From positions 186,001 to 250,000 of the forward strand of contig JAPWJY010000008.1 of the NCBI GenBank assembly GCA_028283765.1: 64,000 nt of DNA. The letters are read 5' to 3'. A program made the position numbers and the translations under genes. Below are positions 22,579-28,724 of this stretch, piece by piece (within the stretch, counting starts at the first letter, position 1; the number at the start of each line of letters is the position of its first letter). This DNA comes from Parvibaculaceae bacterium. Its GTDB lineage: Bacteria > Pseudomonadota > Alphaproteobacteria > Parvibaculales > Parvibaculaceae. The notes under the pieces are model-generated. The model was not told the DNA's origin and did not search any database. It worked only from the letters and a program-made list of their open reading frames with translations.

Positions 22579-23619
22579 TCAAGCCGCGTCGGCGTTGCCG
22601 CTGGCTCTGAAGCCCTCGTTCTGGCTGCCGGCCACCCGTTCGCGCCGGGATTTGTGGATGAGCGCGCCCCGGCTGTCGTCGCTGTCGGGCTTGCTGGTGG
22701 CCAGCCGGATAACCTCGGCATAGCCGTCCTTCTGCTCGATCCGGTCGCCGAAGCCGTTGGCGATCAGATAGGCATGGGCCTTGGGCAACTGGTGGCAGGG
22801 GATCCACATGGCGAGATGATGCTCGACATGATAATTGACCCAGTAGGGCGCGATGAACGCCCGTTCAGCCCAGTTCACGAGGGTGGTGCGGGCATTGCGA
22901 AACGGATCGTTGTTGTCGGGCAGCACCGCATGTTCGGCGATATTGCGCAGCCGCGTCACCATCTGCTGCCAGGTCAGGAAGGGGACGAGCCAGAGGGTAA
23001 GATAATAAAGCGGGTGCCCGGCGGCCCAGAGCAGGCCGAAGATCACGAACTGGGCTACGGTCGCCCGGCCTAGCCGCTTCCAGTAGCGGGTGAGCCGGTC
23101 CTTCAGGGGCAGGTCCTTCGGCCCGAAGGCGTTCAGAATCTGGGCTTTGCGCTGCTGATAGCCGGTCTGTCCGGTCAGATCGCGGAAAATCTTGCGGCGC
23201 AGGCTCTTCTTCGTGATCGGGAACGGGGCCGAGAGAATGAGGTCCGGATCGTCCGGCTGCTGGGTGCTGGCGTGGTGCTTGAGATGATAGCGCCGGTAGG
23301 CCAGCGTCTCGGCCATCATCGGATAGCCGCAGAACCACTGGCTGAGAAAGAGGTTGAGCTTCTGGTTCTCGGCCAGAATGCCGTGGGCGCCGTCATGCAT
23401 CAGGATGGCGAGGCCAAGCTGGCGCGCGCCGATGATGGCGACGGCGGCCAGATAGGTGATCGGGTTGGGGAAAATCGCCACAAGCGCCATGGCGGCGATG
23501 ATCGTGCCCCAGGCGTGGGCGACGAGGGCGATACCCTTCCAGTCGGAGCGCTTGCGCACCTCCGCAAGCTGGGAAGGGGTGAAGAGATCGTTGGCTGAAA
23601 GCCGGTTGGGATTGCTCAT
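22579..23619 (-). CDS. Fatty acid desaturase family protein
   Basis: 346-residue membrane di-iron desaturase. All three histidine clusters are present: HDGAHG (about residue 76), HLKHH (about 112) and HVEHH (about 264), with hydrophobic helices between them (ALVAIFPNPITYLAAVAIIG and a pair around 195-215). Acyl-lipid desaturases of this type use O2 and ferredoxin or cytochrome electrons; regioselectivity cannot be predicted. The start overlaps the TetR gene stop by 4 bases, so both are one transcript under the palindrome at 24277-24309, and membrane-lipid tuning by the regulator is likely. Confidence 0.92.
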   Translation of the reverse strand: MSNPNRLSANDLFTPSQLAEVRKRSDWKGIALVAHAWGTIIAAMALVAIFPNPITYLAAVAIIGARQLGLAILMHDGAHGILAENQKLNLFLSQWFCGYPMMAETLAYRRYHLKHHASTQQPDDPDLILSAPFPITKKSLRRKIFRDLTGQTGYQQRKAQILNAFGPKDLPLKDRLTRYWKRLGRATVAQFVIFGLLWAAGHPLYYLTLWLVPFLTWQQMVTRLRNIAEHAVLPDNNDPFRNARTTLVNWAERAFIAPYWVNYHVEHHLAMWIPCHQLPKAHAYLIANGFGDRIEQKDGYAEVIRLATSKPDSDDSRGALIHKSRRERVAGSQNEGFRASGNADAA

Positions 23620-24275
23620 GCGATGAACCTTTGTTCATTTTTAATTGCTGGCTGTATCGCGGTAGTGTCTGCGCCGATGGCGGCAAGGCAGAAATGGACG
23701 ATTTCATCGACGGTGCGGGCGGGGTCGGCGTCGAGCAGATGGGACTGGGGCGCGAGAGGCCCGATCAGCGCCGTCGGCACCGCGCCCGCCATGGCGGCGG
23801 CGGCGATGGCCGTGTTGAGAGGCTCGATGTCCCCTGCTTCCACCGCTTCGTCGAGCAAGCCGGCGAAAATGGAAGCATGGGTCTGGCGGAAACGGGCGCG
23901 CTCCTCGGCCAGATGAACATCCACGGGCTCGGACAGGAGCGCGAAAGCGAGACGGCGGCCGCGCACGGCCCGGTCGGCGAAGGTGCGCAGCACCTTTTCC
24001 AGCCGCTCAAGCGGCGCGCCGGAGCCTTGCGCAATCGTTGAAAGAAAATTCATTTCCTTGGTGGAGACTTCCCGGAAGACCTGACGGCACAGATCCTCCT
24101 TCGAGGTGAAATAGCGGTAGAGCGTGCCGGTCGCGAAGCCCGATTTTTTCGCCACCTCGGTCACCTGCGCGGAATTGAACCCGCCTTCAGCAACCAGTTC
24201 GCGCGCCGCCTTGAGAATCTGACGCCGCGTCTGGGCAAGCCGCGCGGCCACTGCATCTGTCCGTTTATATGCCAC
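23616..24275 (-). CDS. TetR/AcrR family transcriptional regulator
   Basis: 219-residue repressor. The N-terminal helix-turn-helix is RRQILKAARELVAEGGF and VTEVAKKSGFATGTLYRYF with KEDLCRQVF, the standard TetR layout; the C-terminal ligand domain is unassigned. The start is GTG at 24275, with AAGGAG 6 bases upstream; that ribosome site lies inside a long palindrome, so the protein probably represses its own operon. It is translationally coupled to the desaturase and likely senses a fatty acid or acyl-CoA. Confidence 0.92.
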   Translation of the reverse strand: MAYKRTDAVAARLAQTRRQILKAARELVAEGGFNSAQVTEVAKKSGFATGTLYRYFTSKEDLCRQVFREVSTKEMNFLSTIAQGSGAPLERLEKVLRTFADRAVRGRRLAFALLSEPVDVHLAEERARFRQTHASIFAGLLDEAVEAGDIEPLNTAIAAAAMAGAVPTALIGPLAPQSHLLDADPARTVDEIVHFCLAAIGADTTAIQPAIKNEQRFIA

Positions 24276-24276
24276 C

Positions 24277-24309
24277 TGAATCTCCTTTCAGAAAATGAAA
24301 GCAGATTCA
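24277..24309. promoter_or_regulatory. TetR operator palindrome
   Basis: TGAATCTCCTTTCA (24277-24290) and TGAAAGCAGATTCA (24296-24309) are inverted copies matching at 13 of 14 positions around a 5-base centre. The site begins right at the GTG start of the TetR gene and covers its ribosome site. Such a long dyad next to a TetR gene is the normal form of an autoregulatory operator. Confidence 0.75.
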
Positions 24310-24352
24310 TGATCCCAGGTCAATAAGGAAACAGGGTGCTGAAAAGCAGGAA

Positions 24353-24380
24353 CCCCGGCCTTCACTGAAGAAGGCCGGGG
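24353..24380. terminator. Strong hairpin between the small ORF and the tetR operon, probable terminator
   Basis: CCCCGGCCTTC (24353-24363) and GAAGGCCGGGG (24370-24380) make a perfect 11-bp stem with loop ACTGAA. It lies 34 bases after the stop of the small ORF on the minus strand, and only a weak T-rich tail (CTTTTC) follows on that strand. Confidence 0.65.
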
Positions 24381-24413
24381 CTCGATTCCACACGAGAATA
24401 GGGCTACCCGCTG

Positions 24414-24584
24414 TTAAGCGGCTTTCAGCGAAAGCGCGAATTCTTCATCCGCCTTGCGCATATCCTGAGACTTGTAACCGCGCCGCTTCATTCCATGGGA
24501 ATGCGCAGGCTGGTCATGCCAGTAGGTCTGGCCGGTGAGGAGTCCGGCAGCAATTGCCGCCGCGTGCAGCCAATCTTGAACCAT
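24414..24584 (-). CDS. Small uncharacterised protein (56 residues)
   Basis: 56-residue protein I do not recognise. The start has an almost ideal ribosome site, TAAGGAGGACCATC before ATG, and a well-spaced promoter upstream (24639-24667), so expression is likely. The N-terminal part WLHAAAIAAGLLTGQTYW is weakly hydrophobic, the middle is histidine-containing (HDQPAHSHGM), and the tail is charged (RKADEEFALSLKAA). A strong hairpin follows the stop. Three copies of TGCGAC lie between promoter and start. A regulated small protein is the best reading; no function is proposed. Confidence 0.65.
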   Translation of the reverse strand: MVQDWLHAAAIAAGLLTGQTYWHDQPAHSHGMKRRGYKSQDMRKADEEFALSLKAA

Positions 24585-24605
24585 GATGGTCCTCCTTATG
24601 CTGGG

Positions 24606-24631
24606 GTGCGACGGTCGCACTCATGTTGCGA
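24606..24631. promoter_or_regulatory. Putative operator: repeated TGCGAC sites in the 5' leader of the small ORF
   Basis: GTGCGAC (24606-24612) and GTCGCAC (24614-24620) form a 15-base palindrome, and a third copy TTGCGAC follows at 24625-24631. They lie between the predicted -10 and the ribosome site of the minus-strand gene at 24414-24584, the position of a repressor block. The cognate regulator is unknown. Confidence 0.45.
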
Positions 24632-24638
24632 CGCGGCA

Positions 24639-24667
24639 GATATAGTTGGCGGGCATATGGAAAGCAA
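24639..24667 (-). promoter_or_regulatory. Sigma-70-type promoter for the 56-residue ORF
   Basis: On the minus strand, TTGCTT (24662-24667) and TATATC (24639-24644) are separated by 17 bases, a good -35/-10 pair. Transcription would start near 24631 and reach the ORF start after a leader of about 45 bases. Confidence 0.55.
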
Positions 24668-24724
24668 GGGAGGGGCGGGCGGGCGGGGTGCGACATTTTT
24701 GCCCGATATGCGGCAGATTGCTTC

Positions 24725-25678
24725 TTATGCAGCCGTTAATTTGCCCATTAAAATGGCAACAAAGATGATCAGGCCCGCATCCCGGTTGGTGCGGAAGAGG
24801 CGCAGGCAAAGGTCCGGGTTGTCGATGTCGAGACGCGCGATCTGCCAGCCGAACTGGGCGGCCGCGGCTGCGACGCCGAGATAATACCAGAATGAAAACG
24901 AAAGGCTGAGGCCGGTGGCGACGAGCGCCAGCACCATCAGCCCGTAGAACAGCAGAAGCCAGCGCCGGGTCGAGGCGCCGAACCGCAGGGCCGTCGATTT
25001 GACCCCGATCAGCGTATCGTCCTCCTTGTCCTGATGGGCATAGATGGTGTCATAGCCAATGGTCCAGAACACCGACCCGGCATAGAGCAGGACAGGCGCG
25101 AGCGAGAGGCTGCCGGTCACCGCCGTCCAGCCGAGCAGGGCTCCCCAGTTGAAGGCGAGGCCCAGCACCGCCTGCGGCCAGTAGGTGATGCGCTTCATGA
25201 ACGGATAGGCGGCGACGATCAGCAGCGAGGCTGCGCCGAGCCAGACTGAAAACGGATTCAGGCAAAGCAGGACGACAAGTCCCGTCAGGCAAAGCAGGGT
25301 CAGGAAGGCCAGCGCCTGTTTGACCGAAACCGCGCCGCTGGGGATGGGGCGCGAACGGGTGCGGGCGACCGAAGCATCGAAATCCCGGTCCACAATATCA
25401 TTATAGGTGCAGCCCGCGCCGCGCATCACGAAGGCTCCCACGGCAAAGAGCGCCATCAGGAGCGGGTTGGGCAGGCCCATCCGGGAAAACAGGCTGGCAT
25501 CCGGATTCATTCCTTGTCCGGCGGCCAGCGCAATGGACCACCAGCAGGGCCAGAGCAAAAGCCATGTGCCAATGGGCCGGTCGGCCCGGGCGAGGCGCAG
25601 ATAGGGGCGGGCCCATGCCGGGGCGTAAAGGTCCACCCAGTTCGCGGGCACCGCGTCGGCTACCGTTCCATCGCTCAT
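24725..25678 (-). CDS. ubiA: 4-hydroxybenzoate polyprenyltransferase
   Basis: 317-residue membrane prenyltransferase that attaches the polyprenyl tail to 4-hydroxybenzoate in ubiquinone synthesis. The first Asp-rich motif is YNDIVDRDFDASVARTRSRP (quoted to 20 residues), the second is DTIYAHQDKEDD, and about eight or nine hydrophobic helices cover the rest. The frame extends upstream to 25972, but that part overlaps rsmE on the other strand; ATG at 25678 has GGAGAG 6 bases before it. Divergent from rsmE. ubiD is nearby but not in the same unit. Confidence 0.95.
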   Translation of the reverse strand: MSDGTVADAVPANWVDLYAPAWARPYLRLARADRPIGTWLLLWPCWWSIALAAGQGMNPDASLFSRMGLPNPLLMALFAVGAFVMRGAGCTYNDIVDRDFDASVARTRSRPIPSGAVSVKQALAFLTLLCLTGLVVLLCLNPFSVWLGAASLLIVAAYPFMKRITYWPQAVLGLAFNWGALLGWTAVTGSLSLAPVLLYAGSVFWTIGYDTIYAHQDKEDDTLIGVKSTALRFGASTRRWLLLFYGLMVLALVATGLSLSFSFWYYLGVAAAAAQFGWQIARLDIDNPDLCLRLFRTNRDAGLIIFVAILMGKLTAA

Positions 25679-25819
25679 CTGGCTCTCCATTGCTGCGGCT
25701 CCGGTGTAGCGCGGGAGCGGGCCCAAGTCATCTGGATCGCGTGTCCGGCATGATGATGGCAGGTGACAAGTCCGGGCCGGGCTGGCACCTCTATTCTTCT
25801 GCGCGAGGGAGACCATCTC

Positions 25820-26635
25820 ATGAAGTCCGGACCCACAAAATCTGGAAAAGACCAGCAAGACGAAAGCCCTGCCCATTGCGGCACCGGCAAGACCCGTCTT
25901 TATGTCGAGGCGCCGCTCCATGAGGGAGCCCGTTTCGAGGCGGACAAGGACCAGGCGCATTATCTCCTTCACGTGCTGCGCCTCAGGCCGGGCGCGCGGG
26001 TGCTGCTGTTCAACGGGCGCGACGGCGAATGGGCGGCGGAACTGGCGGAGCTTTCAAAGCGCGCCTGCGCCTTTCATGTCACGGGGCAGACGAGGCCCCA
26101 CCAGCCTCTGCCGGATGTCTGGCTGCTGTTCGCGCCGGTGAAGCGCGCAAGGCTCGATTTCATCGCCCAGAAGGCGACGGAAATGGGCGCGTGCCTGATC
26201 CGCCCGGTGCTGACGCGGCGCACCATCGTCTCGCGGGTCAATGACGAGCGGCTGGAAGCCAATGTCGTGGAGGCAGCCGAACAATGTGGGCTCGTCGCCC
26301 TGCCGCAGGTCGGCGAGGCGGTCGCGCTGGACCGGTTGCTCGACCGCTGGAACGAGGAAGCGCCGGGCCGCCGGATCCTGTTCTGCGACGAGGGCGCGGA
26401 GCCGGGCGGCGCGCTCGATGCGCTGACGGCGCTGGCGCAGGCGGGGGCAAGGGAGGCGCCCTGGGCCGTGCTGATCGGACCTGAAGGCGGTTTTGCGCCG
26501 GAGGAGCGCGCGCGGCTCAGGGCCATGCCGGGCACGCTCGCCCTGTCGCTGGGGCCGCGCATCCTGCGGGCGGATACGGCCGCCATCGCCGCCCTGTCCG
26601 CCTTCCAGCTTGTGCTGGGCGACTGGCGGCGCTGA
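25820..26635 (+). CDS. rsmE: 16S rRNA (uracil-1498-N3)-methyltransferase
   Basis: 271-residue SPOUT methyltransferase that modifies U1498 of 16S rRNA. The N-terminal PUA-like domain has HYLLHVLRLRPGARVLLFNG; the SPOUT domain shows KATEMGACLIRPVLTRR, VEAAEQCGL and the knot region LIGPEGGFAPEERARL with LGPRILRADTAAIAAL, all diagnostic. ATG at 25820 follows GGGAG at 8 bases; a further in-frame start at 25763 is less likely. It is followed by gshA on the same strand after 206 bases that hold no recognised feature. Confidence 0.95.
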   Translation: MKSGPTKSGKDQQDESPAHCGTGKTRLYVEAPLHEGARFEADKDQAHYLLHVLRLRPGARVLLFNGRDGEWAAELAELSKRACAFHVTGQTRPHQPLPDVWLLFAPVKRARLDFIAQKATEMGACLIRPVLTRRTIVSRVNDERLEANVVEAAEQCGLVALPQVGEAVALDRLLDRWNEEAPGRRILFCDEGAEPGGALDALTALAQAGAREAPWAVLIGPEGGFAPEERARLRAMPGTLALSLGPRILRADTAAIAALSAFQLVLGDWRR

Positions 26636-28506: not shown

Positions 28507-28724
28507 GGCTCCCCCGCACACGCGGGGATAGACCTGCGGCAAGGGCCGTCTATGGCAGCGGCAGCGGCTATGTGGCTCCCCCGCACGCGCGGGGATAGAC
28601 CTTTCTCCGTTCAGGGCTTCCGCAAAAGGTTCGCGGCTCCCCCGCACACGCGGGGACATACCTTGATGAAGTCGCTGATTTTGCCAGTGTCTGGCGGCTC
28701 TCCCGCTCCTGCAGGGATCATCTT
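28507..28724 (+). CRISPR. Short type I-E-like CRISPR array, four repeats, no cas genes in view
   Basis: Four 29-base repeats lie at 28507-28535, 28574-28602, 28635-28663 and 28696-28724. The core is CCCCGCACACGCGGGG followed by ATAGACC, which matches the hairpin and 3' end of type I-E repeats (CCCCGC...GCGGGGATAAACC). Spacers are 38, 32 and 32 bases. Repeat 2 differs from repeat 1 at one position, repeat 3 at two, and repeat 4 at nine, so the right end is the old, decayed end and the array reads left to right on the plus strand. The minus-strand translation gives RSIPACAGEP, the well-known false protein of such repeats. The last repeat runs into the tldD stop codon. No cas1, cas2, cas3 or Cascade gene occurs in the window, so the array is orphan or served from elsewhere. 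Confidence 0.85.

Follow-up and report, generated by a model that had tools for sequence, protein, structure and literature searches.

The window analysed here, a stretch of 64,000 nucleotides from the genome of a Parvibaculaceae bacterium (G000), contains on its minus strand a gene for a 56-residue protein. It lies between the genes for a UbiA-family enzyme and a TetR-family regulator, the latter followed by a desaturase-fold gene, and all three neighbours are on the same strand as the small gene. The features of the locus, in the direction of transcription, are:

24725-25972, minus strand: gene for UbiA, 4-hydroxybenzoate octaprenyltransferase, the upstream neighbour
24689-24695, minus strand: TGTCGCA, the form taken here by a distal TGNCGCA element, 28 nt upstream of the -35 hexamer
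24662-24667, minus strand: -35 hexamer TTGCTT, followed by a 17-nt spacer
24639-24644, minus strand: -10 hexamer TATATC
24621-24641, minus strand: predicted PhaR box ATCTGCCGCGTCGCAACATGA, overlapping the end of the -10 hexamer and the expected transcription start region (consensus as given in the available text of PMC12542648)
24606-24620, no strand assigned: palindrome GTGCGACGGTCGCAC, comprising the first two TGCGAC elements, in the predicted 5' UTR
24591-24597, minus strand: ribosome binding site AAGGAGG, read from the sequence
24414-24584, minus strand: small protein gene, 56 aa (MVQDWLHAAAIAAGLLTGQTYWHDQ...), from the open reading frame and its homologues, with the stop codon at 24416-24414
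24350-24383, minus strand: terminator-like hairpin of 14 pairs with a weak T tract, separating the small gene from the TetR gene
24277-24309, minus strand: predicted TetR auto-operator, consisting of two TGAA-N6-TTCA sites (TGAATCTGCTTTCA, TGAAAGGAGATTCA)
23616-24275, minus strand: gene for a TetR-family regulator, the downstream neighbour, with its own operator
22579-23619, minus strand: gene for a fatty acid desaturase-fold protein (PF00487), downstream of the TetR gene

Elsewhere in the window, at 28507-28724 beside TldD, three well-kept 29-nt repeats (of the GGCTCCCCCGCACACGCGGGGATAGACCT type) and one degenerate copy, with spacings of 67, 61 and 61, look like a short CRISPR array, which we take to be type I-E-like.

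The 56-residue frame had been picked out in a first-pass annotation and is present as described, at 24584-24414 on the minus strand. It is a real small protein gene, to date known from one family. The annotation had staked this on conservation of the frame in relatives, and the frame is kept in 32 homologues, these being the Parvibaculaceae genomes with a match to a sequence profile of the protein. In 10 hand-picked close pairs of homologues, third codon positions hold 86 of the 152 base differences, and the codon differences divide into 63 synonymous and 60 non-synonymous. In these pairs pN/pS is 0.05 for the segment ending at W22 and 0.44 in the tail that follows; the former value, together with the synonymous bias, identifies the N-terminal 22 residues as a constrained protein segment. 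An alternative, longer frame with a GTG start at 24620 would begin inside the palindrome and lacks a good ribosome site.

The product ranges from 36 to 65 aa. Its N-terminal helix motif, WLHxAAxAAxxFTGxxxW, is conserved, with W5, A10 and W22 invariant in 16 aligned homologues, though W22 is not found in all 32. The tail is polar and fast-evolving, often ending in F..LRAAD, and the short proteins of one genus (36-41 aa) are without the C-terminal part. A single-sequence structure model of low confidence (mean pLDDT 66) places helices at residues 3-20 and 39-55, and a Foldseek search with this model returned 0 matches. The helix is hydrophobic and weakly amphipathic, being equalled by 1-28% of shuffles. 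The product is a small protein not described before, and as modelled it is probably helical.

The earlier remark that the protein has no known relatives holds as far as named families go. Searches of Pfam and NCBIfam gave single-member matches only, at E 0.013 or worse, a profile search of PDB sequences gave E 0.76 or worse, and nothing about the gene appeared in the titles and abstract starts of the papers listed. The remark does not hold within the family, since the gene occurs in 32 of 40 Parvibaculaceae genomes, in all five genera and once per genome, when searched with a 16-row profile. A single-sequence search had matched 25 of 98 genomes, every one in the same GTDB family. Against 385 genomes sampled evenly across the class, the profile gave seven matches: five in Parvibaculaceae and two weak ones (E 0.003 and 0.008). 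One of the weak matches (L091) was rejected because it reads as part of a longer frame, and the other (L092) sits within a frame of 577 aa. Thus there is no convincing member outside Parvibaculaceae among the candidates scored in this sample, at most 16 per genome, a depth at which a very diverged member could be missed.

The expression signals ascribed to the gene are in place. There is a promoter with the 17-nt spacing that had been noticed (TTGCTT-17-TATATC), and because its hexamers are weak, a stricter sigma-70 scan of 24200-24900 reported no promoter. The ribosome site praised in the annotation, AAGGAGG at 24597-24591, is in place, and a Shine-Dalgarno-like motif (loose pattern) occurs in 28 of the 32 homologues; structure in the 5' UTR is no better than in shuffles. 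The 'strong terminator hairpin' is there too. Its 14 pairs (24383-24350) have a folding energy of -31 kcal/mol and a z of -7.3, but the T tract is poor and a stricter T-tail test was failed. Hairpins of -10 kcal/mol or below with a T-rich tail occur in 27 of the 32 homologous gaps, the window's own hairpin not being among them. Given the poor T tract and the unreported promoter, the expression signals alone are modest evidence.

The three TGCGAC elements (or their complement) lie where they had been reported, at 24607-24612, 24614-24619 and 24627-24632, and their proposed role as control elements divides between them. The third lies in a PhaR-like box that is common to other genera, whereas the palindrome formed by the first two is not a genome-wide element. 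The palindrome is kept in another genome of the same genus (G001), and inspection by eye did not find it before the gene in the remaining genera; its halves are without the canonical box spacing. There is one exact copy of GTGCGACGGTCGCAC in the genome, and the scan that had been suggested for finding its regulon showed none, with 12 places at two or fewer mismatches against 16 for the reversed control. On these counts the palindrome (GTGCGACnGTCGCAC) was rejected as a regulon site, and TTGCNNNGCAA was rejected as a motif, being loose (68 occurrences against 41 in the control).

The box around the third TGCGAC, ATCTGCCGCGTCGCAACATGA, agrees with the PhaR core YGCRNYGCR at 9 of 9 positions and with the published consensus at 20 of 21. 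That consensus was tested by EMSA in S. meliloti, where PhaR binds WNWDDNYGCRNYGCRNHHWNW, and the same account quotes the R. sphaeroides site as CTGCNNNGCAG (PMC12542648, in the text available). For B. diazoefficiens the site is given as NGCN3GC[GA]N3 (PMC10888616, likewise). The upstream DNA of relatives carries TGTTGCATCGCAACA-like palindromes. When a box is defined by a 9/9 core and at least 19/21 overall, within the last 130 nt before the start, it is present upstream of 31 of the 32 homologues, compared with 136 of 4717 control windows from the same loci (true sites included) or 84 of 4572 once the promoters of the genes themselves are excluded, the two control sets spanning 1.8-2.9%. Because the homologues are related, the 31 boxes are not 31 independent events. 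In the one exception, G005, both the gene and PhaR are present and the 130 nt upstream contain no box.

The placing of the box relative to the promoter is variable. Hexamers were picked by script in 17 of the 32 promoters and read by eye in the others. On that basis four of the five members of the genus with the short proteins (G002, G006, G010 and G016) have the box across the -35/-10 spacer, and by eye so does G004. In the window's genus, and in most other promoters whether scripted or judged by eye, it follows directly on the -10, and G003, G007, G025 and G028 have a box in each of the two positions. A site that shifts its place yet stays at the core promoter has, we infer, the look that would be expected of a repressor operator.

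The neighbouring TetR would be another source of control, and would place the gene in a lipid (desaturase) module instead of a polyhydroxybutyrate (PHB) regulon. In 30 of the 32 loci, across all five genera, the small gene is followed by both the TetR and the desaturase gene, the two exceptions being G001, where the contig ends in the TetR gene, and G037, which has only a partial desaturase; the regulator itself has a TetR_C_24 domain and resembles ScbR- and FadR-type models, below their cut-offs. Against this, TGAA-N6-TTCA sites precede the TetR gene in 31 of 31 loci (G037, without a TetR match, being omitted) and occur in 0 of the 32 small-gene promoters, with a background of 118 in 4717 control windows, true sites included. 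The double operator is likely to be an autoregulatory site of TetR. In many relatives it is conserved as TGAACCATGGTTCA ... TGAACGGAGGTTCA, and in the window it is degenerate. A T-tailed hairpin separates the two genes in 27 of the 32 loci, although the window's own hairpin fails this test. Eight genomes of the family are without the small gene, and five of these (G019, G031, G039, G009 and G012) have a TetR orthologue with readable upstream DNA; in all five, by eye, TetR keeps its TGAA..TTCA whilst the DNA upstream differs. In the 900 nt above TetR in these genomes, PhaR-like boxes matching at least 18 of 21 positions number one in G019 (18), one in G031 (20) and two in G039 (19), with none in G009 or G012. 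The small gene's controller is probably not the neighbouring TetR, and its membership of a TetR-governed lipid module seems very improbable.

PhaR itself (PF07879) is found in 37 of the 40 genomes of the family and in 30 of the 32 that carry the small gene; in the window's genome it scores 159 bits against the TIGR01848 cut-off of 109. It was not found in G027 and G037, drafts that are 91% and 71% complete and in which both gene and box are present. Boxes with the full consensus also accompany PHB genes. One lies 123 nt before a phasin gene in the window's genome. In G011 (taken as P. lavamentivorans) there is one 143 nt before a phasin gene and another close to where phaZ begins, and in G010 one lies 236 nt before phaR. 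P. lavamentivorans phaZ is Plav_0012 in the available text of PMC3368416. In G011 the phaZ box is by eye just after the -10, as it is at the window's small gene. The longest mechanically called frame extends into this box, but similarity to the protein family starts at residue 20 of that frame, so the phaZ start is likely to be downstream of the box. At the G011 phasin promoter two box-like sites flank the -35, again by eye. G010 has a further box in the gap between two genes for citrate synthase, and G011 has one ahead of a peroxiredoxin gene. The sites examined were chosen for good looks or nearness to PHB genes, 7 of 24 in G011 and 7 of 28 in G010. The second-phasin loci retrieved from G000 and G011 showed no full-consensus box, nor was there one at phaR in either of these genomes.

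Some other boxes may mark further members of such a regulon. Two in tandem precede an alpha/beta hydrolase gene by about 51 nt in the window's genome (L048, 1501-1539), a possible PHB-regulon enzyme, and tandem boxes also lie upstream of a gene for a DUF1302 protein in P. lavamentivorans (L142, 1793-1833). Boxes upstream of small hydrophobic open reading frames (L140, 1741, 73 aa in G011; L156, 1373, 39 aa in G000) perhaps point to more small PhaR-controlled proteins.

The box could instead be read by some regulator other than PhaR. Counted over whole genomes, sites with the full consensus are barely commoner than those of the reversed control (14 against 13 in G000, 24 against 20 in G011, 28 against 18 in G010). 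Several of the G000 sites fall within long frames. The window's own box, at 20/21, is short of the full consensus and so is missing from the G000 list. G027 and G037, with gene and box and without a PhaR match, would also fit another reader. So would a second conserved element that PhaR does not explain, the distal TG[ACT]CGCA found 17-18 nt upstream of the TTG of the -35 in 29 of the 32 promoters of the small gene and, true sites counted in, in 165 of 12030 control windows. This element is possibly an activator site, and its GNCGC presumably recalls RegR/PrrA half-sites. Yet the box agrees with the PhaR consensus as published and stands also at phasin, phaZ and phaR genes of the family, and we regard a different reader as unlikely.

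PhaR thus remains the favoured regulator, and the small gene is quite probably a PhaR-repressed member of the PHB regulon with its own promoter, a reading in which both the binding of PhaR at the box and the resulting repression are predicted from sequence. In the absence of PHB, free PhaR would occupy the YGCRNYGCR box at the core promoter, blocking transcription. As granules form they would bind PhaR away, and the small gene would be turned on along with phasin and depolymerase. Since the promoter bears the likely site of a PHB-sensing repressor, the gene is probably made as storage granules fill the cell. The annotation's suggestion of a 'regulated small protein' is supported by the conserved frame, the gene order, the synonymous bias and the promoter architecture.

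A short transcription unit with a PhaR box and a strong hairpin might also suggest a PhaR-controlled small RNA in which the reading frame is incidental, and the S. meliloti small RNA MmgR is indeed a PhaR target according to the text available of PMC12542648. But the frame is kept in all 32 homologues, with a Shine-Dalgarno-like motif in 28 and a bias to synonymous change, and an Rfam search of 24250-24800 found nothing over cut-off, the best being Yfr1 at 18.7 bits against 38. It would be most surprising if the locus served mainly to make an RNA, though a dual-function RNA is conceivable.

For a PhaR-repressed protein that is made as granules form, the simplest role would be that of a granule accessory, held to the PHB granule by its aromatic helix, and this is a plausible though tentative assignment. 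An adaptor or metabolic regulator, acting on PhaR, the synthase or central carbon metabolism and not a granule protein at all, fits nearly as well, and is itself a possibility to be taken seriously if short of an even chance. The boxes at the citrate synthase genes of G010 and the peroxiredoxin gene of G011 are in keeping with such a role, as is the reach of S. meliloti PhaR, which by the available account extends well past granules (PMC12542648). The invariance of W5, A10 and W22 in the 16 aligned homologues may mean a specific partner, even if W22 is not kept in all 32. On the other hand, the Pfam, NCBIfam and PDB sequence searches gave no similarity to known regulators.

If the granule accessory role is the right one, the family would be a new minimal class of granule-surface protein, of 36-65 aa with an aromatic helix and a loose tail, unrelated in sequence to phasins and evolved in Parvibaculaceae under PhaR; this more elaborate proposal we hold to be possible but somewhat doubtful. 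The small protein does not match the phasin models PF09361 and TIGR01841, and hhalign comparisons found no similarity to the two phasins examined (probability about 0) or to PhaR. Among seven genomes searched, four in which gene and box are present (G002, G004, G006 and G010) gave no Phasin_2 match. Other phasin types may be present in these, or the small protein may even substitute for the phasin where Phasin_2 is not found.

An orphan small open reading frame thus becomes a testable candidate for a bioplastic-storage regulon, with a defined operator, a regulator and a cultured species (P. lavamentivorans), and the box alignment supplies a PhaR motif for Parvibaculaceae.

Amongst known systems, the phasins (PF09361 / TIGR01841) share with the small gene the same predicted operator and regulator, but the two examined are of 116 and 130 aa and match PF09361, which the small protein does not. 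The layouts of the boxes in G011 are like those of S. meliloti, the phasin promoter resembling that of phaP and the phaZ promoter that of the depolymerase gene SMa1961, where the box lies between the -10 and the start (PMC12542648, available text). MmgR is similar to the small-gene locus in being a short PhaR-controlled unit (PMC12542648, same text); unlike MmgR, the Parvibaculaceae locus has a reading frame under selection. A closer parallel is provided by two small hypothetical proteins (SMc03998 and SMc02051) that the same text lists among the strongly PhaR-repressed genes of S. meliloti (PMC12542648). Each of their genes is listed with a promoter of its own (context 'Mc'); the PhaR boxes are 59 and 122 nt ahead of the ATG, and expression rises in a phbC phaR mutant. 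PhaR binding at these promoters is marked NE, which we take as not examined. The likeness to the Parvibaculaceae gene is one of box and, as predicted for the latter, of regulation. With two such proteins in S. meliloti, small PhaR-repressed genes are already known as a kind, and the gene described here is best placed as a new family of genes within a known regulon. The occurrence of PhaR-controlled small proteins in S. meliloti also suggests that they may form a wider, overlooked layer of PHB physiology.
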